Source of the DNA: Winogradskyella sediminis
GTDB lineage: Bacteria > Bacteroidota > Bacteroidia > Flavobacteriales > Flavobacteriaceae
DNA: 64,000 nucleotides
NCBI RefSeq assembly: GCF_003387355.1
Contig: NZ_QUNH01000002.1
Location: 847,606 to 911,605, forward strand
Direction of reading: 5' to 3'
In this document: positions 1 to 47,108 of the stretch, piece after piece
How positions within the stretch are numbered: position 1 is the first letter of the stretch
Layout of the letters: every line of letters starts with the position of its first letter
Translations under genes and position numbers: made by a program
The notes under the pieces: model-generated
The model's database searches: none
What the model saw: the letters and a program-made list of their open reading frames with translations, nothing else
Told to the model about the DNA's origin: nothing

Positions 1-882
1 ATGCAGCATCCTGTAGGTTATGAAATTTTAGATAATGGTAAATATGTTTTAGAAAATTTCTCGGCACTTTTTACAAATCCATGGTTATTACCTGCTTTTC
101 TGCATAATCAAATGGCCTCGGTTGTAACATCGGCTTTTGTAATGGCAAGTATTGGAGCTTTTTATATATTAAGAGATAAACATTCTGAATATGGTCATCT
201 GTTTTTAAAAACAGGTGTGATATTCGGATTAATATCTAGTGTTTTAGTTGCGTTTCCTACTGGCGATTGGAATGCCAAAAATGTCGCCAAATACCAGCCA
301 GGAACTTTTGCTGCTATGGAAGGTATTTTTGAAACCGAAGAAGCCGGAGCAGAAATTGTCTTAATTGGTCAGCCTAATATGGTAGAAAAAAAGCTAGATA
401 ATAAAATTGCGGTACCTAATATATTAAGCTTTTTAACGTATCAGGAATGGCATAGACAGATTCCTGGGATGGATCAGTTTAAAAAAGAGGATTTGCCAGA
501 TAATATACCAGCATTGTATTATTCGTATCATATTATGGTTGGATTAGGTACAATATTTATTGCAGTTATGGCTTTAGCACTGTTTTTTTTATGGCGAAAG
601 AAATTGTATACCATCAAATCATTATTATGGACAATTATGTTCTTAGTGCCTTTTCCTTATATCGCCAATATCACAGGTTGGTATACTGCAGAATTAGGTA
701 GACAACCTTATTTAGTTTATGGGTTATTAAGAACAAGCGATGGAGTTTCACCTACCGTATCTTCAGGTAATACCCTCTTTACATTATTAGGATTTGTTGC
801 ATTATATCTACTTTTAGGATTGTTGTTTTTAATCTTAGTCGGAAAAACTATTAACGAAGGTCCAACCCCTAAACCACATTAA
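1..882 (+). CDS. cydA: Cytochrome bd quinol oxidase subunit I (3' part, cut by window start)
   Basis: C-terminal part (about 293 residues) of the haem-bearing subunit of cytochrome bd, which oxidises quinol and reduces oxygen to water in the inner membrane. The visible part opens with HPVGY, an internal CydA motif, so the true start lies upstream of the window. Several hydrophobic helices are visible, and the stretch GRQPYLVYGLLRTSDGVS matches the conserved region after the quinol-binding loop. The stop is 2 nt before cydB, so the two are co-transcribed. Family identity is firm; only the 5' end is missing. Confidence 0.95.
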   Translation: MQHPVGYEILDNGKYVLENFSALFTNPWLLPAFLHNQMASVVTSAFVMASIGAFYILRDKHSEYGHLFLKTGVIFGLISSVLVAFPTGDWNAKNVAKYQPGTFAAMEGIFETEEAGAEIVLIGQPNMVEKKLDNKIAVPNILSFLTYQEWHRQIPGMDQFKKEDLPDNIPALYYSYHIMVGLGTIFIAVMALALFFLWRKKLYTIKSLLWTIMFLVPFPYIANITGWYTAELGRQPYLVYGLLRTSDGVSPTVSSGNTLFTLLGFVALYLLLGLLFLILVGKTINEGPTPKPH

Positions 883-884
883 TT

Positions 885-1958
885 ATGGAACTATTTTGGT
901 ACATCGCAATCGGTATTGTTTTAACGGTATTTTTTGTTTTAGATGGTTATGATTTTGGAGCTGGAATTATTCATTTATTTTTTGCTAAAACCGAAAAAGA
1001 TAAGGAGGTAATTACCAAATCGGCAGGTTTGTTCTGGGATTCTAATGAAGTTTGGTTGGTAGCCGCTGGAGGCATGCTTTTTATGGCATTTCCAACATTT
1101 TATGCCTCTGTTTTTAGTGGTTTCTATTTACCATTAATAATCGTGCTTTGGTTAATTATTTTTAGAGCTATCGGATTAGAGTTTAGAGGACAATTTAAGT
1201 ACGATATGTGGAAAGCTATTTGGGATAAATCCTTTGGACTTTCTAGCTTGTTATTGGCTTTGTTTTTCGGTATTGCTTTAGGAAACATTGTAAGAGGTGT
1301 CAATTTAGGAAGCGTAGAAAATGGTGTTTCAGTCCACGAAGAACATTATTTTTTCTTACCGCTTTGGAATAGTAGTTTTAGTCCTTTAACGGATCATCCA
1401 GGAGTGATAGATTGGTTTACAATTATTATAGGTGTAATAGCTGTAGTCACGCTCGCTATTCATGGAGCAAATTGGATCATTTTAAAAACAAATTCATCTA
1501 TAAATCTAAAACTGAAGGGTGTTATTTTTAAACTGAATATAGTATTAGCAGTGCTTACTGTGTTCTCTTTATATGTATGGCAGTTGGTTAATCCTACTTC
1601 ATTAGATAATTTTATCCACAAACCTTATTTGATGGTGTTTCCAATCATTTATTTAATTGGTGTAATAGGCTTGTTTTTTATAAAAAAGATAAAAAAAGAT
1701 GGTCACGCTTTTATGTTATCGACACTTATAATTGTTGGAGGGATTACGTCTTCATTAGCATCATTATTTCCTGTAATATTACCTTCAATAAATAATGTTA
1801 ACGGCCATTTAACTATATACAATACATCTGCGTCAACATACGGCTTGTCTGTTGCTATGATTTGGGGCATTATTGGGTTTTCGCTTCTATTGGTGTATTT
1901 CATTGTACAAAAAAGACTTACTGCCGGAAAAATTGATCATATGGATTATGGTCACTAG
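885..1958 (+). CDS. cydB: Cytochrome bd quinol oxidase subunit II
   Basis: 357-residue, almost entirely hydrophobic partner of CydA. It begins with the typical N-terminal helix followed by LDGYDFGAGI and SNEVWLVAAGG, both hallmarks of CydB. Length is normal for the family (about 340-380). ATG lies 2 nt after the cydA stop, giving the standard cydAB operon. The complex is a high-oxygen-affinity terminal oxidase that contributes to the proton gradient. No CydX-like peptide was recognised directly downstream; a different small membrane gene follows. Confidence 0.96.
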   Translation: MELFWYIAIGIVLTVFFVLDGYDFGAGIIHLFFAKTEKDKEVITKSAGLFWDSNEVWLVAAGGMLFMAFPTFYASVFSGFYLPLIIVLWLIIFRAIGLEFRGQFKYDMWKAIWDKSFGLSSLLLALFFGIALGNIVRGVNLGSVENGVSVHEEHYFFLPLWNSSFSPLTDHPGVIDWFTIIIGVIAVVTLAIHGANWIILKTNSSINLKLKGVIFKLNIVLAVLTVFSLYVWQLVNPTSLDNFIHKPYLMVFPIIYLIGVIGLFFIKKIKKDGHAFMLSTLIIVGGITSSLASLFPVILPSINNVNGHLTIYNTSASTYGLSVAMIWGIIGFSLLLVYFIVQKRLTAGKIDHMDYGH

Positions 1959-3031: not shown

Positions 3032-4429
3032 TTAAAATTTATGCTGATTAATTAAAGCATCACGTTCTTTCTTTAACTGAGAACTAAGGCCTATTTTGTA
3101 GATATGTGGATTCTGAAAACGCTTATATTCATTAGGCAATTGTTTTAAACGCGATTGCGAGTACTCAGCAATTTCAGCAACCGTTCTAATAGGTATTGTT
3201 CTTTTGCCATCTTTCATTACTTGATTTAAAAGTGGTTCATGCGTAAACCTATTTAATTCTAGGCTTTTTGTAATATCAAAAGGATGTTCCATTTTTGAAA
3301 CTTTCGTTTCGGAATGAATCGCTATGGCATCAGCACCGTAAAACATACCATTATCATCAATCATACGATAGACTTGCTTTTTAAATGGTAGCGATGTTTT
3401 TATAATATTCTCTGATAATTTAATTCTTGGAGTGTCGTTAAAAGCCGCTAGTTTATATACACCAGCAAGCGCTGCATCTGGTTTACCAGTAACTAAATTA
3501 GTACCCACACCAAAAATATCGATAGGTGCTCCTTGTTCTTTTAAACTTTTTATCACGTATTCATCTAGTTGATTAGACACCACAATCTTTACGTAACCTA
3601 AATTTGAATCGTCTAAAATCTGACGTGTTTTTTTTGCTAAATAGGCTAAATCTCCACTATCTAAACGAACACCTAACAAACGTTCACCGCGTTCTTCCAT
3701 TTCTTTGGCCACCGTAATGGCGTGTGGTAAGCCACTTTTTAACGTATTATAGGTGTCTATGAGAAGCACACAATTATCTGGTCGGACTTTAGCAAAATCT
3801 CTAAATGCTTGTAATTCATCTTCGTAACTTTGAATAAATGAGTGCGCCATTGTGCCTGTAGAAGGAATAGCATAATCTTCTGCGGCTTTTACATTACTCG
3901 TACTATCAAACCCACCAATAGCTGCAGCTCTAGAAGCATAATAGCCGCCTGTAGCATGGGCTCGACGTAAGCCCATATCTAATAGCACACCATCTTTGGC
4001 ACTGTACTTTATACGGCTGGCTTTAGTGGCAATTAAAGTTTGAAAATTAAGAATATTAAGTAAAAAGGTTTCTATAATCTGCGCTTCAATAATATTAGCT
4101 TCAACCTGTAGTATTGGTCGATTAGGGAACACAACATCGCCTTCTTGACAAGAATAAATAGCACCTTTAAAGCTGAAGTTTTCTAAGTAGTCTAAAAAAT
4201 CACTTTCAAACCCTTTATCCTTTAAATAAGTCATATCTGAAGATGAGAACTTTAGGGTTTCAAGGCTGGTTAAAACATCTTCCAAACCGGCAAATATAGA
4301 ATAGCCACTTTTAAAAGGGTTATGTCTAAAATAGTAGTCAAAAACGGCGCGTCCATTTGGTTTGGTCTCAAAATAAACTTGAGCCATTGTTATTTGATAT
4401 AAGTCGGTATAAGCTGCTGTAATATTCAT
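3032..4429 (-). CDS. pncB: Nicotinate phosphoribosyltransferase
   Basis: About 465 residues. Transfers phosphoribosyl from PRPP to nicotinate, feeding the Preiss-Handler NAD pathway. The N-terminus TDLYQITMAQVYF, the GLRRAHATGGYYASRAA block and the VRLDSGDLAYLAKK phosphate-binding region are family signatures. I chose the ATG at 4429: the longer reading adds only a TTG codon directly before it. It is first gene of the pncB-pncA pair and is divergent from the efflux locus. Confidence 0.95.
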   Translation of the reverse strand: MNITAAYTDLYQITMAQVYFETKPNGRAVFDYYFRHNPFKSGYSIFAGLEDVLTSLETLKFSSSDMTYLKDKGFESDFLDYLENFSFKGAIYSCQEGDVVFPNRPILQVEANIIEAQIIETFLLNILNFQTLIATKASRIKYSAKDGVLLDMGLRRAHATGGYYASRAAAIGGFDSTSNVKAAEDYAIPSTGTMAHSFIQSYEDELQAFRDFAKVRPDNCVLLIDTYNTLKSGLPHAITVAKEMEERGERLLGVRLDSGDLAYLAKKTRQILDDSNLGYVKIVVSNQLDEYVIKSLKEQGAPIDIFGVGTNLVTGKPDAALAGVYKLAAFNDTPRIKLSENIIKTSLPFKKQVYRMIDDNGMFYGADAIAIHSETKVSKMEHPFDITKSLELNRFTHEPLLNQVMKDGKRTIPIRTVAEIAEYSQSRLKQLPNEYKRFQNPHIYKIGLSSQLKKERDALINQHKF

Positions 4430-4598
4430 CAAAATGTAAATTATCTATTGCCAAAATTTGTGAAATCATCACGTGTAATTTTATAGCTAATGTTTAAAAA
4501 AATAAAGAGAATAAATTTAAACATATTTTACCATTTTGAGCAGTGCTTCTCGAGAAAGTTCTGCTTTTTAATCGTCACATAATAAAGACTTGACTTAA
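4430..4598. other. Intergenic stretch between pncB and the first operator
   Basis: AT-rich, non-coding on both strands. It must hold the pncB promoter (reading leftward), but I could not pick a convincing -7/-33 pair. The rest of this 459-nt gap holds the operator/promoter modules and the putative sRNA, listed separately. Confidence 0.5.
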
Positions 4599-4642
4599 GT
4601 AACATGAGTTACCAATGTTTACAGAATCTTAAATTACTTTTG
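4599..4642 (+). promoter_or_regulatory. Operator plus promoter of the putative sRNA
   Basis: An inverted repeat GTAAC-N4-GTTAC at 4599-4612 continues as CAA and is followed, after 19 nt, by TACTTTTG at 4635-4642, a perfect match to the Bacteroidota -7 element TAnnTTTG. No TTG is found at the -33 position; the operator's right half-site lies there instead. With transcription starting near 4648 the palindrome is centred near -42, the usual place for a class II activator. The same arrangement with identical spacing recurs before tolC. The regulator is not identified. Confidence 0.6.
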
Positions 4643-4647
4643 TGTAA

Positions 4648-4819
4648 TTAATTTATTTAAATTAGAAGTTATACATAGTTTAAAACCATTAGATTTAATG
4701 TGTTAATACCACTAACAAGCGGTATTGAAGATTTTAGGTTGAAAATTATAAACTGATGTGGTTATCAGTTTTTGGTTGGTTAGGGAAAAGCATTCATTTT
4801 TTTAATGAATGCTTTTTTT
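4648..4819 (+). ncRNA. Putative structured small RNA upstream of tolC
   Basis: Predicted transcript of about 170 nt between the promoter at 4635-4642 and a strong terminator. Hairpins read from the sequence: 4703-4710 with 4721-4728 (8 bp including one G-U, 10-nt loop); 4750-4757 with 4764-4771 (perfect 8 bp, loop GTGGTT); and the terminator stem 4786-4798 with 4804-4816 (13 bp) running into T's to 4819. Reading frames are short; the longest from an ATG is about 21 codons and runs through the terminator, so a coding role is unlikely. I recognise no known RNA family. It could alternatively be a tolC leader, but tolC has its own promoter beyond the terminator. Confidence 0.5.
4786..4819 (+). 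terminator. Rho-independent terminator of the putative sRNA
   Basis: Perfect 13-bp stem (4786-4798 / 4804-4816), T5 loop, and a T tail to 4819. It lies between two promoters reading the same way, with no protein gene before it. Confidence 0.8.
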
Positions 4820-4824
4820 AGTTA

Positions 4825-4869
4825 GGTAACAATGGTTACCAAGTAAGTTTTTTGTTCGCTCTACTTTTG
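4825..4869 (+). promoter_or_regulatory. Operator plus promoter of the efflux operon
   Basis: Perfect 6-bp inverted repeat GGTAAC-N4-GTTACC at 4825-4840, then AA, 19 nt, then TACTTTTG at 4862-4869 (TAnnTTTG -7 element). Start of transcription is expected near 4875, 14 nt before the tolC ATG. No TTG sits at -33. Operator core, the shared GTTACCAA and the 19-nt gap repeat the module at 4599-4642, implying control by the same, probably activating, protein. The 5-4-5 layout resembles Crp/Fnr-type boxes; that is inference. Confidence 0.65.
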
Positions 4870-4888
4870 TATCAGAAATATAATAACT

Positions 4889-6199
4889 ATGAAAAACCAA
4901 ACTTTTAAAATCCTGTTTTTTGCATTAATGGTTAATTTGAGTCTACACGGACAAGAGCAAATTGCTATTACAAAAAAGGACGTTTTATCTAAAGTTTCAG
5001 AGCGCAATACAAGCCTTAAAATTTCGGAGGAAGATTTTCAGCAAGCCAAAGCAGATTTTAAACAAACTAATGCGGTGTTTTTACCAAATATTAGCGCAAG
5101 TCATACCGCCATGGCTACTACCAATCCATTAATGGCGTTTGGATCAAAATTGAATCAAGAAATTTTAACCCAGAATGATTTTAATCCTGCCTTATTAAAC
5201 GATCCATCTCAGATTGAGAATTATGCAACTAAAATAGAGGTTCAGCAACCTTTAATTAATATCGATGGCATGTATCAGCGAAAAGCAGCTAAATCTAAAA
5301 TGGATGCCATGGCTCTAAAGACTGAACGCACGCAAGATTACTTAGCATTTGAGGTTGAAAAAGCCTATATGCAATTGCAGTTGGCTTACAAAGCGGTTAC
5401 TGTTTTAGAAAAAGCACTAGAGGCGGCAAATGCCAATAAAAAGTTAGCAGATAATAGTTTTAAGCAAGGGTATTTGCAACGTGCGGATGTATTAAATGTT
5501 GAAGTCCGTGTCACTGAAGTTCAAAATCAATTGCAATCGGCAAAAAGTAATGTAGAAAATGCCTCAAATTATTTGTCTTTTTTAATGAATGATGAGACCT
5601 ATGTGGTTTATATACCAGCTGACGAATTAGAGGTAACTACGACAACAATAGAGGATAAATCAATTTCTGAAAACCGTTCAGATATTAAAGCGATGGAATT
5701 GGCCTCTAATGCTTACGAAGCTATGAATAAAGCAGATAAAATGGCATTCTTACCACGATTAAATGCTTTTGGAAGTTATGAATTGTACGACGACCAAATT
5801 TTTCAAGCCAATGCTAGTGGTTATTTATTTGGCGCACAATTAAGCTGGGATATTTTTCAAGGTTCAAAGCGTTTTGCTAAAGCACAAAAAAGTAAATCGG
5901 AATTTGAACAGTCAAAATTAGAATACCAACAATATGTGTCGCAAAGTAATTTAGAACTCAACAAAGCGAAACGTGCTTTTTTAGATGCTGCGAATAAATT
6001 GAAGTTGATAACATTGGCCTTAGAACAATCTGAAGAATCTTTAAGAATTAGAACGAATCGATTTAAAGAAGGTCTTGAAAAAACATCGGATTTGTTAATG
6101 GCTGAAACCCAATTTTCACAAAAACAATTGGAATATTATCAAACCATTTTCGAATACAATTATGCGCAAGCTTATTTAGAATTTTTAACCAAAGAATAA
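4889..6199 (+). CDS. TolC-family outer membrane efflux protein
   Basis: 436 residues with a signal peptide (about 1-22). Two repeats of outer-membrane-efflux-protein type, rich in long amphipathic coiled-coil helices (for example around 150-215 and 320-420), predict the trimeric outer membrane channel of a tripartite pump. It is the first gene of a tolC - adaptor - RND pump operon, and its ATG lies about 14 nt after the expected transcription start. Typical length for the family is 420-480. Substrate cannot be read from the sequence. Confidence 0.92.
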   Translation: MKNQTFKILFFALMVNLSLHGQEQIAITKKDVLSKVSERNTSLKISEEDFQQAKADFKQTNAVFLPNISASHTAMATTNPLMAFGSKLNQEILTQNDFNPALLNDPSQIENYATKIEVQQPLINIDGMYQRKAAKSKMDAMALKTERTQDYLAFEVEKAYMQLQLAYKAVTVLEKALEAANANKKLADNSFKQGYLQRADVLNVEVRVTEVQNQLQSAKSNVENASNYLSFLMNDETYVVYIPADELEVTTTTIEDKSISENRSDIKAMELASNAYEAMNKADKMAFLPRLNAFGSYELYDDQIFQANASGYLFGAQLSWDIFQGSKRFAKAQKSKSEFEQSKLEYQQYVSQSNLELNKAKRAFLDAANKLKLITLALEQSEESLRIRTNRFKEGLEKTSDLLMAETQFSQKQLEYYQTIFEYNYAQAYLEFLTKE

Positions 6200-6253: not shown

Positions 6254-7330
6254 ATGAAAAAAACATATACAATTCTAACATTTTCTTTAGCCTTGTTATT
6301 AGCAAGTTGTGGCAGCGAAGACAATAAAAATGTAGCAGATAATTCACCAGCAATCCCAGTAAAAACGAGTCAGGTAGAAGCTGATACGAATAGTCCGTTT
6401 TTAGCAGTTAGTGGAAAAATTCAAGCCGTAAATAGTGCCGATTTAAGTACCAGAATGATGGGGTATGTAAATAAAGTTCATGTTAATGTAGGAGACAAGG
6501 TAAGCAAAGGTCAGTTATTGGTTTCTATCAACAATACTGATTTACAAGCCAAGCGTGCTCAAGTCAATGCAGGTATTGCAGAAGCCACTGCGGCTTTTAA
6601 TAATGCTCAAAAAGATTACAATCGATTTAAAAATTTATTCGCAGAAGAAAGCGCCACACAAAAAGAACTGGATGATATTATAGCAAATTTTAATATGGCA
6701 AAAGCACGATTAGAATCTGCAAAACAAATGAAAAACGAAATAAATGCTCAGTTTTCTTACAGTAATATCACAGCTCCTTTTAGCGGAATTATTACAAGTA
6801 AATCTATAGAAGCAGGTAATATGGCAAACCCTGGAGTGCCATTAATTAGTATGGAAACACCAGGACATTTTGAAGTGATGGCTATGGTACCAGAATCTGA
6901 AATTTCTGGAATTAAAAAAGGAACCACTGTAGATGTTTTGGTAAAATCTATCAACCAAACCATTAAAGGAAAAGTGGCTGAAGTCAGTACATCGGCAAAA
7001 AACACAGGTGGACAATATTTAGTAAAGATAGATTTAGAAACTACTGAAGCCAATATTTTATCAGGCATGTTTTCAACCGTACAATTTCCGGTAGAAAGAA
7101 AGGCAGAGACGTCAATGGTTTTAATTCCAACGGATGCTATTATAACAAACGGACAATTATCTGGTGTATATACCGTAAGCCAAAGTAATACAGCAATGTT
7201 ACGCTGGTTACGTTTAGGAAGAACGTTTGGAGACCAAGTAGAAGTATTATCGGGATTAAATGCGGATGAAGCCTATATCGTTTCTGCTGAAGGAAAACTT
7301 TACAATGGCACTAAGATTAGCATTCAGTAG
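6254..7330 (+). CDS. RND efflux periplasmic adaptor (membrane fusion protein)
   Basis: 358-residue lipoprotein: hydrophobic leader ending in the lipobox LLASC with Cys19 as the acylated residue. A barrel-sandwich (lipoyl-like) domain is split around a helical hairpin: GYVNKVHVNVGDKVSKGQLL near 70-90 and YSNITAPFSGIITSKSI near 170-190. A beta-barrel and membrane-proximal domain follow. It links the inner membrane pump to the TolC-like channel. It lies 54 nt after tolC with a REP-like palindrome between them. Family assignment is firm, substrate unknown. Confidence 0.93.
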   Translation: MKKTYTILTFSLALLLASCGSEDNKNVADNSPAIPVKTSQVEADTNSPFLAVSGKIQAVNSADLSTRMMGYVNKVHVNVGDKVSKGQLLVSINNTDLQAKRAQVNAGIAEATAAFNNAQKDYNRFKNLFAEESATQKELDDIIANFNMAKARLESAKQMKNEINAQFSYSNITAPFSGIITSKSIEAGNMANPGVPLISMETPGHFEVMAMVPESEISGIKKGTTVDVLVKSINQTIKGKVAEVSTSAKNTGGQYLVKIDLETTEANILSGMFSTVQFPVERKAETSMVLIPTDAIITNGQLSGVYTVSQSNTAMLRWLRLGRTFGDQVEVLSGLNADEAYIVSAEGKLYNGTKISIQ

Positions 7331-7430: not shown

Positions 7431-7451
7431 GTAAATCACATAAGAGTAAGC

Positions 7452-7533
7452 GCGTTAAGGATAGCAATGGAAATCCTTTTTTTGCTGCCATATATGGCAA
7501 AAAAAGATTGCAATGGATAGCCTGTTAAAACGC
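7452..7533. repeat. 82-bp palindromic intergenic element
   Basis: Outer arms GCGTT (7452-7456) and AACGC (7529-7533) enclose a nested palindrome with a perfect 14-nt core TGCCATATATGGCA (7486-7499), flanked by T7 on the left and A7 on the right. GCAATGG occurs on both sides. It lies between the adaptor and pump genes. Its shape is that of a short non-autonomous palindromic (MITE/REP-like) element; it could also act as a transcript-level hairpin setting adaptor:pump ratios. No protein is encoded. Confidence 0.6.
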
Positions 7534-7551: not shown

Positions 7552-10500
7552 ATGAAAGAAGGAATCGCAGGTAAAATCGCCAAAGTCTTTATGCAATCGA
7601 AGTTAACCGTGTTGTTAATGATTGTATTTATGGTGGTTGGTGTATATAGTTCGTTTTTAATTCCACGTGAGGAAGAGCCGCAAATTGATGTGCCAATGGC
7701 AGACATTTTTGTGGGTTATCCAGGAGCAAGTCCAACGGAAGTTGAGTCACGTGTTATTAAGCCATTAGAGCAATTAATTTCGAATATTAAAGGGGTTGAA
7801 TATGTGTATTCCACGTCCATGAAAGAACAAGGTATGGTCATTGTTCAGTTTTATGTGGGGGAAGATATTGAGCGTTCGTTTGTAAAATTATACAACGAAA
7901 TTAACAAACACATGGATCAAATGCCAGCTGGTGTTACGTTTCCGTTAGTAAAAACACGTGCTATTGACGATGTGCCCATGTTAGGATTGACCTTATGGAG
8001 CGAGAATTACGATGATTACCAATTAAGCCAAATGGCACAAGAGTTAGAGGCTGAAATTAAAAAGGTCAAGGACGTAGCCATTACTCATAAAATAGGAGGA
8101 AGAGACCGTCAGCTACGTGTGGTTTTAGATAAGGATAAATTGGCGGCAAGTGGATTAGACTTCTTGTCAGTATCTGAAATGATTAAGGCCAATAACAGTC
8201 AGTTAAGTGCTGGAAGTTTTGATAAAAGTGATACTGAGTTTTTGGTGAATACGGGCAAGTTTTTAGCTTCAGTAACAGATGTTGAAAATTTAGTTGTTGG
8301 TGTGCAACAAAATCAGCCGATATACTTGAAGCAAGTCGCTAACATTATTGATGGCCCGGAAGTACCACAAAACTATGTGAGTTTAGGTTTTGGAAAAGGA
8401 AGTGTAAAAGCTGATGATTATAAATCTGAATATCCTGCGGTGACGATTTCTGTCGCTAAACGAAAAGGAGCAGATGCTATGAAAATCGCCGAAGTGATTA
8501 TAGATAAAGTAGATCATTTACGAGCAACTTTAATTCCAGATGATGTTCATGTAGAAATTACAAGAAACTACGGAGAAACTGCGTCTCATAAAGTATCGGA
8601 ATTATTATTACACCTTATCGGTTCAATCTTTGCAGTAACCATTGTAGTAATGTTAGCTATGGGCTGGCGAGGAGGCTTGGTCGTATTTTTATCAGTACCC
8701 ATTACGTTTGCTTTAACCTTGTTGAGTTACTACATGATGGATTATACGCTTAACCGAATTACGTTATTCGCATTAGTATTCGTAACAGGAATCGTGGTCG
8801 ATGACTCTATTATCATTGCCGAAAACATGCATAGGCATTTCAAAATGAAACGCTTGCCATTTAAACAAGCCGCTTTATATGCCATTAACGAAGTTGGTAA
8901 TCCAACCATCTTAGCAACATTTACGGTAATTGCTTCGGTATTGCCAATGGCCTTTGTGTCTGGATTAATGGGACCGTATATGGCACCAATGCCAATTGGA
9001 GCATCAATTGCTATGATTTTATCGCTATTTGTGGCTTTAACCATTACGCCTTATTTGGGTTATATTTTCTTAAGAGAGAAAGATAAAAAAGGAGCGGAGG
9101 AGAAGCCTGAAAAAGCAGTAGAGGACACACTGATTTATAGAATTTACAACAAATTTGAAAGACCGCTTTTAGAAAGTAAAGGCAAGCGTTGGTTGTTTTT
9201 ATTAGGAACGTTTGCTGTCTTATTAGGAACGATGGCCTTATTTTTTACTAATTCGGTTGCTGTAAAAATGCTGCCTTTTGATAACAAGAATGAGTTTCAA
9301 GTGGTGATTGATATGCCAGAAGGCACCACCTTAGAACGCACAGGTGTTGTAGCTCAAGAGATTTCTCAGTATTTATCGACCCGACCAGAAGTAGTGAATT
9401 ATCAAAACTATGTTGGGACGTCTGCACCAATTACGTTTAACGGTTTAGTACGTCATTACGATTTACGTGGTGGTTCTAATATGGCAGATATTCAAGTAAA
9501 TTTATTATCTAAAGAAGACCGTTCAGCGCAAAGTCATGATATCGCTAAATTATTGCGACCAGATATTCAGAAGATTGCTTCAAAATACAATGCGAATGTG
9601 AAGTTGGTTGAGGTGCCACCAGGACCACCTGTATTATCGACTATAGTTGCTGAAGTTTATGGACCTGATTATGAGGAACAAATTAAGATAGCAAATCACA
9701 TTCAAGATATTCTGAGAAATACTGATGATGTGGTTGATGTTGATTGGATGGTTGAAGATGATCAAACCGAATATCAATTCGACATCAATAAAGAGAAAGC
9801 CATGTTATATGGTGTAGCACCACAGCAAATAGCGTATACTATGAACATGGCGTTATCTAATAGAGCCATCACCAATTTATATGATGAAAATGCAGTTAGC
9901 CAAGTAGGCTTAGTATTAGCTTTAGATGAGAAAGAAAAATCGACGATTACGGATATTTCACTATTAAAAGTGAAATCAAAACAAGGCCATATGGCGCCAA
10001 TTGCTGATTTGGTAACGATTAGTGAAACAACTGCAGCAAAAAGTATCTATCGAAAAAATCAAAAACGTGTGGTGCATGTCATGGCAGATATGGCTGGAGA
10101 TTTAGAAAGTCCTGCATATGCCATTTTAGGTATGGAAGAAAAATTAAAAGATATTCCATTACCACAAGGTTTTGAGATCAATGAAATGTACTTAGGGCAG
10201 CCAGAATTTGAAGATGATTATACCGTAAAATGGGATGGTGAATGGCAAATTACTTTAGAAGTCTTTAGAGATTTAGGTATTGCCTTTTTAGGTGCTATTA
10301 TATTGATTTATATCTTAATAGTAGGATGGTTTCAAAATTTTAAAGCGCCTATTGTAATGATGGTTGCAATACCATTATCCTTAATAGGAATAATTTTAGG
10401 CCATTGGTTGATGGGAGCATTCTTTACTGCCACCTCATTTATAGGTATGATTGCTTTAGCCGGAATTATGGTAAGAAACTCAGTATTGTTGATAGACTTT

Positions 10501-10746
10501 ATCAATTTAAGAACAGCTGAAGGCGTACCATTAAAACAAGCCGCGATTGAAGCAGGAGCTGTGAGAACCACACCAATTTTATTAACTGCGGGAACCGTTG
10601 TTATTGGAGCCTTTGTGATACTATTTGACCCCATTTTTCAAGGCTTAGCCATTTCATTAATGGGAGGAACCATTGTGTCAACGGTGTTAACCTTATTGGT
10701 GGTGCCATTAGTGTATTATATGATAGAGAAGAAGAATTATAAGTAA
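7552..10746 (+). CDS. RND-family efflux pump, inner membrane transporter
   Basis: 1064-residue AcrB-like proton antiporter with two homologous halves, each one helix, a large periplasmic loop and a helix bundle. The conserved helix-4 acidic pair is D417 and D418 in GIVVDDSIIIAEN, the proton-relay site of this superfamily. Length is typical for drug-type (HAE) pumps. It completes the tripartite system with the upstream adaptor and TolC. It is preceded by an 82-bp palindromic element and followed by two opposed REP-like palindromes, so expression may be tuned within the operon. Substrate range cannot be inferred. Confidence 0.95.
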   Translation: MKEGIAGKIAKVFMQSKLTVLLMIVFMVVGVYSSFLIPREEEPQIDVPMADIFVGYPGASPTEVESRVIKPLEQLISNIKGVEYVYSTSMKEQGMVIVQFYVGEDIERSFVKLYNEINKHMDQMPAGVTFPLVKTRAIDDVPMLGLTLWSENYDDYQLSQMAQELEAEIKKVKDVAITHKIGGRDRQLRVVLDKDKLAASGLDFLSVSEMIKANNSQLSAGSFDKSDTEFLVNTGKFLASVTDVENLVVGVQQNQPIYLKQVANIIDGPEVPQNYVSLGFGKGSVKADDYKSEYPAVTISVAKRKGADAMKIAEVIIDKVDHLRATLIPDDVHVEITRNYGETASHKVSELLLHLIGSIFAVTIVVMLAMGWRGGLVVFLSVPITFALTLLSYYMMDYTLNRITLFALVFVTGIVVDDSIIIAENMHRHFKMKRLPFKQAALYAINEVGNPTILATFTVIASVLPMAFVSGLMGPYMAPMPIGASIAMILSLFVALTITPYLGYIFLREKDKKGAEEKPEKAVEDTLIYRIYNKFERPLLESKGKRWLFLLGTFAVLLGTMALFFTNSVAVKMLPFDNKNEFQVVIDMPEGTTLERTGVVAQEISQYLSTRPEVVNYQNYVGTSAPITFNGLVRHYDLRGGSNMADIQVNLLSKEDRSAQSHDIAKLLRPDIQKIASKYNANVKLVEVPPGPPVLSTIVAEVYGPDYEEQIKIANHIQDILRNTDDVVDVDWMVEDDQTEYQFDINKEKAMLYGVAPQQIAYTMNMALSNRAITNLYDENAVSQVGLVLALDEKEKSTITDISLLKVKSKQGHMAPIADLVTISETTAAKSIYRKNQKRVVHVMADMAGDLESPAYAILGMEEKLKDIPLPQGFEINEMYLGQPEFEDDYTVKWDGEWQITLEVFRDLGIAFLGAIILIYILIVGWFQNFKAPIVMMVAIPLSLIGIILGHWLMGAFFTATSFIGMIALAGIMVRNSVLLIDFINLRTAEGVPLKQAAIEAGAVRTTPILLTAGTVVIGAFVILFDPIFQGLAISLMGGTIVSTVLTLLVVPLVYYMIEKKNYK

Positions 10747-46968: not shown

Positions 46969-47108
46969 TGATAAACTCAACGATCAATTCTTTAAAAAGG
47001 GTGAGTTTAAGTTGTAAAATCGTGCTGTTAGTGCTGAACTCGATTCAGTATCTTAGACAGATTTTTGATCAGCTTGTTAGCCCTAAACTTGTTTTTAAGG
47101 AGTTTATA
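46969..47108 (+). ncRNA. ssrS: 6S RNA
   Basis: The zapA - rny gap folds as a 6S-type rod: closing stem ATAAACT (46971-46977) with AGTTTAT (47101-47107); then CTTTAAAAA (46990-46998) with TTTTTAAGG (47092-47100), where a neighbouring pairing competes; further internal pairing AGTTTA with TAAACT; a central unpaired region; and an apical hairpin at 47025-47060 with TGCTGAA / TTCAGTA around a CTCGA loop. 6S RNA mimics an open promoter and sequesters RNA polymerase. The zapA neighbour fits known 6S synteny. Ends are approximate; the -7 box (ATTTTTTG) is a weak match. No protein frame. Confidence 0.6.

Follow-up and report, generated by a model that had tools for sequence, protein, structure and literature searches.

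Between pncB, which ends at position 4432, and tolC, which starts at position 4889 and belongs to an RND efflux pump operon, Winogradskyella sediminis carries an interval predicted to be non-coding, in which we found no open reading frame (ORF) of at least 50 amino acids. Is this interval an RNA gene in its own right, and if so, which part of it is conserved, what switches it on and what might the RNA do? The original prediction, made for the 64,000-nucleotide stretch of DNA analysed here (the window), placed in it an independent, structured small RNA (sRNA) of about 170 nt. The observation is real, yet its extent was overdrawn: evolution retains only a 72-nt 3′ module, at positions 4748–4819.

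Layout of the locus

Several parts of the proposed gene are where they had been placed. The −7 element TACTTTTG of the sRNA promoter is present at 4635–4642, a T-run preceded by a long hairpin at about 4786–4819 forms the terminator, and the separate promoter proposed for tolC is represented by a TAnnTTTG element of its own at 4862–4869. A simple consensus scan of 4000–6000 returned no terminator and no plus-strand sigma-70 promoter, Bacteroidetes promoters lying outside its model. Transcription of the sRNA would start near 4648, and the segment 4648–4825 folds at −43.7 kcal/mol, versus −26.4 ± 3.1 for shuffled sequences (z = −5.6; 0 of 200 as good). Two perfect palindromes, at 4599–4612 and 4826–4839, had been overlooked; both lie 22 nt ahead of a −7 element. 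The features of the locus are listed below.

4599–4612, plus strand: operator GTAACATGAGTTAC of the sRNA promoter (from the sequence; equal to the HcpR2 consensus; at a fixed 22 nt from the −7 element)
4635–4642, plus strand: −7 element TACTTTTG of the sRNA promoter (from the sequence; at an equal offset in 11 of 13 stand-alone copies)
4648–4747, plus strand: unconserved leader, including the first hairpin of the original prediction at 4703–4728 (identity at shuffle level)
4748–4819, plus strand: conserved 3′ module of the sRNA (covariance model R1 match at 4748–4821, 89.9 bits; alignments A1 and A3)
4750–4771, plus strand: conserved hairpin AAACUGAU-GUGGUU-AUCAGUUU, with the core CUGAU/AUCAG (covariation in 60 copies)
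4769–4785, plus strand: conserved linker UUUUUGGUUGGUUAG, a proposed seed or protein-binding site (columns almost invariant; recurs in sigma54-type candidates)
4786–4819, plus strand: intrinsic terminator (fold; stem covaries, 94.4% of cells paired)
4826–4839, plus strand: operator GTAACAATGGTTAC of the tolC promoter (from the sequence; in 29 of 29 tolC-near copies, one mismatched)
4862–4869, plus strand: −7 element TACTTTTG of the tolC promoter (from the sequence; at a fixed offset in 28 of 29 tolC-near copies)
4889–6199, plus strand: TolC-type outer membrane efflux protein (Pfam OEP, 151 bits)
6254–7330, plus strand: RND adaptor (membrane fusion) protein (NCBIfam RND_mfp, 224 bits, above cut-off)
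7552–10746, plus strand: RND efflux permease (Pfam ACR_tran, 552 bits)

The original prediction recognised no known family for the RNA, and in our searches the interval has no match in Rfam 15; in a relaxed-threshold scan of 4400–4900, every match fell under its gathering score. Across the entire window, the Rfam scan returned only 6S-Flavo RNA (RF01685, 95.5 bits) at 46975–47105 and Flavo-1 RNA (RF01705, 59.7 bits) at 7445–7531, the latter in the gap that separates the adaptor gene from the permease gene in the tolC-RND pump operon.

Conservation is confined to a covarying 3′ module

When the segment 4560–4888 was used for a DNA search of 68 genomes of the genus, strong relatives aligned mainly from about position 4737 onwards. 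An alignment of 28 copies (A1) contains the CUGAU-GUGGUU-AUCAG hairpin, then the linker UUUUUGGUUGGUUAG(U), then the terminator; 10 of its 19 predicted pairs show a pair-keeping double change, almost all of them within the terminator. The leader behaves differently from the module. Against 10 of the remaining 12 stand-alone copies, the window leader has an identity of 0.47–0.59, versus shuffle means of 0.45–0.56 and with none exceeding its own shuffle maximum, whereas the 3′ module reaches 0.72–0.88 in the same comparison. The first predicted hairpin (4703–4728) thus falls in sequence without conservation.

Compensatory changes were examined in a structure-free alignment of 60 copies (A3). In the core hairpin 97.6% of cells are paired, with 16 double-change cells versus 4.0 in shuffles (0 of 500 as high); pairs changed on both sides number 3 versus 2.0, a count that 106 of the 500 shuffles reach. 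For both stems jointly there are 11 both-side-changed pairs versus 7.4 and 98 double-change cells versus 29.1, and the covariation score of 0.424 versus 0.221 was matched by none of 500 shuffles and lies far above all slid controls. Kinship alone may beat shuffles without any structure, an explanation made less likely by the slid controls and by variants of the hairpin; in four further genomes (G002, G026, G032 and G044; loci L092–L095) a CUAG-type stem replaces CUGAU/AUCAG. The second hairpin and the terminator of the original prediction therefore covary in relatives, while the first hairpin is unconserved. Among the unpaired parts of the module, conservation is highest in the linker and in the GUGGUU loop.

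The covariation analysis and the ORF tally below use the 60 copies of A3, and the context tally uses 61, L170 being omitted from A3 as its locus ends 76 nt upstream. Also left out of A3 were sigma54-type, other-type, antisense and partial matches (L112, L117, L122, L123, L125, L127, L096, L097, L133 on the minus strand, L136 on the plus strand and L034:6079); L145 stands in for L090, which is the same site.

At a threshold of at least 54 bits, the R1 covariance model finds the module in 23 of 68 Winogradskyella genomes, with two such copies in 7 of the 23. In a sample of 397 genomes of the family, 17 genomes from 14 other genera were retained, among the matches listed, after inspection of the neighbouring genes; named carriers include Algibacter, Lacinutrix, Bizionia, Polaribacter, Psychroserpens, Mariniflexile, Oceanihabitans and Arcticiflavibacter. 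Most of the weak matches listed, at about 30–45 bits, were treated as a background of terminators rather than read singly. One match in Lapidilactobacillus (L177) was judged from its own sequence to be due to chance.

The module lies behind a small ORF in most copies and stands alone in the window

A single genus shows the module in four settings: at the end of an oxidoreductase/small-ORF mRNA, after the small ORF on its own, after decayed small ORFs, and free under the operator of that mRNA; for loci of only 1.5 kb this upstream context is incomplete. An intact small ORF of about 45 amino acids, of the type MTQRISKYQRFKMMNP..QFFKFIYLSIKIM.VVAGGHGGTRK, lies upstream in 41 of the 60 copies. Its stop codon ends at module position 9, within the 5′ arm of the hairpin, in 31 of these, about 480–510 nt upstream of the module in 9 and at −18 in 1. 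Differences among eight sequences of the ORF are mostly at third codon positions (98, 14 and 405 at positions 1, 2 and 3), and a 45-aa representative has neither a Pfam nor an NCBIfam match at E 0.01. The ORF at L033 3642–3778 and its relatives form a family ending in GGHGGTRK that is protein-coding by these codon-position changes. The gene usually found ahead of the small ORF encodes a 485-aa oxidoreductase (Pfam Pyr_redox_2) whose nearest NCBIfam model is of the sulfide:quinone reductase type, with 57.5 bits against a cut-off of 525, so that "SQR-like" is a label we infer from this score. Several copies have a cytochrome-c-like lipoprotein (Pfam Cytochrom_C_2, under cut-off) between the small ORF and the module.

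The remaining 19 copies have no intact small ORF, and 13 of them, among them the window, carry an operator at most 260 nt upstream. This stand-alone class (13 of 61 copies) has TAnnTTTG at the fixed distance from the operator in 11 of its 13 members. Remnants of the small ORF are clear in four ORF-less copies (L038:3854, L048, L132:5738 and L159; 0 of 300 shuffles as good) and weak in L049 (1 of 300); none was shown in the other ORF-less copies, including the window, whose leader scores at shuffle level. Three-frame translations of the four clear cases contain stops or frame changes, and their modules still score 68–89 bits. Such decayed ORFs ahead of well-kept modules indicate that the module was retained after loss of the protein.

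The layout proposed for an independent sRNA thus holds for the window, where the RNA is sRNA-like and alone, but the free-standing form is a minority among the copies in relatives, most of which have an intact small ORF in front, a condition that the original prediction had named as refuting it. With module and terminator behind an intact small ORF in 41 of 60 copies and a terminator stem that is 94.4% paired, we read the ORF-preceded copies as a 3′-UTR-type sRNA that is free-standing here, rather than as a refutation of an sRNA.

The same arrangement could be read in another way. The module might be no more than an mRNA 3′-end element of the oxidoreductase operon, a stabilising hairpin plus terminator, with the free copies being leftovers that insulate tolC from upstream transcription. 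The position of the module behind the small ORF in most copies, with the stop codon inside the hairpin in 31, fits such an element. Its unpaired linker, however, ranks among the most conserved parts, several copies retain operator, −7 element and module without an intervening gene, and the linker recurs in other sRNA candidates (see below). We regard this explanation as unlikely and favour an sRNA gene at this locus.

A shared operator probably links the sRNA to the pump and to respiratory genes

In the W. sediminis genome, the palindrome GTAAC-N4-GTTAC lies exactly 22 nt ahead of a −7 element at the sRNA, tolC and cytochrome c promoters. The cytochrome c gene, which is followed by a thioredoxin gene, has its operator 2.3 kb ahead of the window, with the −7 element TATTTTTA; cytochrome c, thioredoxin and cydAB (window 1–1958) probably form one operon. 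Among distinct oriented operator segments, TAnnTTTG occurs at offset 22 in 64 of 204 and in at most 3 at every other offset, and WAnnTTTR is found at offset 22 on one side of 94 of 104 sites and is absent from 10; these segments and sites were drawn from loci around the sRNA–tolC cluster and are therefore related, not independent. Most of the oxidoreductase promoters listed have AACCTTTG, AACCTTTA or TACCTTTA at this offset, and two have GACCTTTA. Downstream of the module, tolC follows within 300 nt in 29 of 61 copies; an operator lies between in all 29, once with a mismatch, and TAnnTTTG keeps the fixed distance in 28. The layout common to sRNA and tolC makes the predicted co-regulation with the pump probable.

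The operator centre lies about 42 nt ahead of the presumed sRNA start, a position typical of class II Crp/Fnr activators. The exact palindrome as such is not enriched in the whole genome (7 sites versus 11 for the reversed control). A −7-like element follows at offset 22 in just 3 of these 7 sites, those of the sRNA–tolC–cytochrome c cluster, and the remaining 4 are within or beside the ends of other genes.

The Crp/Fnr regulator HcpR2 has the palindromic consensus GTAACnnnnGTTAC, and in their recognition helix HcpR2 regulators keep R180 and have P181 (PMC1274295). The operators found here place GTAACnnnnGTTAC ahead of promoters. Ten cNMP-binding proteins were found, of which only one (L061) has an HcpR2-like SRP recognition helix. 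It was rejected as the sole regulator, since among the 23 carriers it is absent in four (G003, G011, G022 and G028) and broken in one (G006). A second protein (L068), with an SRV helix and two adjacent cysteines, is present in 6 of 6 carriers examined; no operator with up to one mismatch was found ahead of its gene. Its gene comes first in a cluster that also encodes two sulfur-transport proteins, a TauE exporter and a metallo-hydrolase/rhodanese protein (three loci, the families being assigned from one). At L262 1318–5272, L263 and L265, an adjacent-cysteine Crp/Fnr protein is seen at the head of such a cluster, and is possibly a sulfide or persulfide regulator. TetR-type control is the common case for RND pumps; it was set aside here because the operator has the Crp/Fnr consensus, keeps a fixed promoter distance and is common to respiratory genes.

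The linker recurs in other RNAs and may act in trans

The linker also precedes terminators in a second type of RNA. Of 27 distinct linker sites examined, 19 have sigma54-like promoters (TTTGGCA-N6/7-TTG, assigned by resemblance to the general sigma54 consensus), and GTGGTT lies 34–39 nt ahead of the linker in 14 of the 27. An Rfam scan of 17 loci with sigma54-type linker sites returned nothing but tRNAs. Candidates with the GGUUGGUUAG linker ahead of a terminator, often with a GUGGUU loop, are found at L112, L117, L122, L123, L125, L127 and L128–L131, with arrays of two or three copies at L117/L130, L128, L129 and L131. W. sediminis itself has one sigma54-type linker site, at C2:518479 (L149 at 1501), outside the 17 loci scanned. 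At two other 3′ ends of its genome, L261 at about 1500 (C1:979745) and L151 at 1501 (C2:989997), the motif TTTGGTTGGTTA lies ahead of a terminator-like hairpin; in L261, a form that recurs in several genomes, TTTGGTTGGTTA is inside the hairpin loop.

The recurrence of the linker in sigma54-type candidates is a hint that these RNAs have a seed or a protein-binding module in common. In favour of pairing, the pattern AACCAACCAAA-N2-14-ATG has 245 matches in the 68 genomes versus 146 in the reversed control. Among the matches listed, 31 loci and then 20 hand-picked ones were read, and many or most were not true starts or were antisense of sRNA candidates. True-looking starts in more than one genome, with names assigned by eye, precede a secreted amidohydrolase-like protein (G000, G007 and G012), an ECF-type sigma factor (G012, G019 and G027) and a 150-aa protein (G010 and G019). 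In three carrier genomes (L280, L281 and L282), ACCAACCAACCAAAAAA lies directly ahead of the ECF-type sigma factor start, a possible sRNA target. Of 60 amidohydrolase orthologs, 30 were read for CCAACC ahead of the start: it is present in 6 of the 14 from carriers, in 2 of the 14 from non-carriers and in neither of the 2 from variant carriers. This correlation with the sRNA is suggestive at best; non-carriers may possess a sigma54-type RNA instead. Two recurrent "targets", AACCAACCAAAACGCATTTT..ATG and AACCAACCAAATTTAGTTTCATATG, were discarded: their ATGs start only short frames, the former resembles by eye the opposite strand of a coding start, and the latter is a hairpin ahead of a terminator. 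The target assignments are weak.

That the linker is instead a docking site for an RNA-binding protein, common to several sRNAs and 3′ ends, with the RNA titrating or needing this protein, would explain why an identical linker stands directly ahead of terminators in several otherwise different RNAs, in one case inside a hairpin loop. The surplus of AACCAACC sites upstream of ATG codons weakly favours pairing, and we consider docking a rather improbable account. Least credible of all is a cis-acting leader or attenuator of the tolC operon, which the end of the window terminator 70 nt before tolC might suggest, but an operator and a −7 element belonging to tolC lie past that terminator, and 32 of 61 copies, some of them convergent with pncA, have no tolC within 300 nt.

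A model for the sRNA and its relation to known systems

The sequences show a conserved RNA module, which in the window most likely forms a free-standing sRNA gene that is activated together with the RND pump. The gene would span 4599–4819 and yield a transcript of about 170 nt, with the 3′ module as its functional part. A Crp/Fnr-type activator bound at GTAAC-N4-GTTAC, about 42 nt before the start, would jointly induce the sRNA, the tolC-RND pump and the cytochrome c gene that lies ahead of cydAB. Its targets in relatives would further include the oxidoreductase/small-ORF mRNA, which ends in the same module. With moderate confidence, we propose that the RNA acts in trans through its linker, the stretch GGTTGGTT being the putative pairing seed. 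The GGUUGGUU linker, taken to be exposed and possibly assisted by the GUGGUU loop, would pair with A/C-rich translation starts (AACCAACC) and repress those mRNAs under the respiratory stress that induces the regulon, although in the predicted fold of the whole transcript the linker is partly paired with the leader, which counts against its exposure. Overall, the reading we prefer is thus a trans-acting, base-pairing sRNA that probably belongs to a Crp/Fnr-type respiratory-stress regulon including the pump.

In the literature on flavobacterial and Winogradskyella small RNAs, we recognised no description of this RNA, subscription papers being mostly outside the coverage. FnrS is a Crp/Fnr-controlled enterobacterial sRNA and CpxQ-type sRNAs are released from mRNA 3′ ends, both acting with Hfq; the RNA described here resembles them in control and in 3′-end origin, and we claim no homology. 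Closest in logic are FopS/GibS, SnoA and Rfp18. FopS/GibS of Bacteroides thetaiotaomicron are paralogous sRNAs with a common seed that repress translation starts, and one FopS member derives from an mRNA 3′ end (PMC11697453, PMC7366714). They are thus similar as Bacteroidetes sRNAs with a shared seed, a 3′-end-derived member and action at translation starts, but their seeds lie in the 5′ part. The GibS covariance model (RF04182) gave 20.9 bits on the minus strand against a gathering score of 115, and no sequence relation was found. The HcpR2 regulon shares the operator GTAACnnnnGTTAC, but it is built around hcp, with only hcp in most of the species listed, whereas here the operator serves cytochrome c, oxidoreductase, pump and sRNA (PMC1274295). 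SnoA of B. thetaiotaomicron is an RNA locus linked to an HcpR-type regulator in Bacteroidetes; unlike our candidate, it lies opposite the hcp promoter, is proposed to act at promoters and has an HcpR-independent level (preprint PMC13370916). Rfp18 of Flavobacterium psychrophilum is a structured flavobacterial sRNA conserved beyond the species (PMC9723704).

A further and more tentative proposal is that this locus captures a small RNA in the course of separating from its parent gene, with the linker GGUUGGUU shared with the sigma54-type tandem candidates. A single riboregulatory code, based on the common linker, would then receive input from two stress pathways, in a phylum, the Bacteroidetes, that is not known to rely on Hfq.

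In the papers we found, few regulatory RNAs of Flavobacteriaceae are described. The putative sRNA family adds one for which anatomy, distribution, promoter logic and a testable linker can be offered. It puts on view stages of an mRNA 3′ end turning into a free sRNA gene, and its operator layout links an RND efflux pump to respiratory genes.
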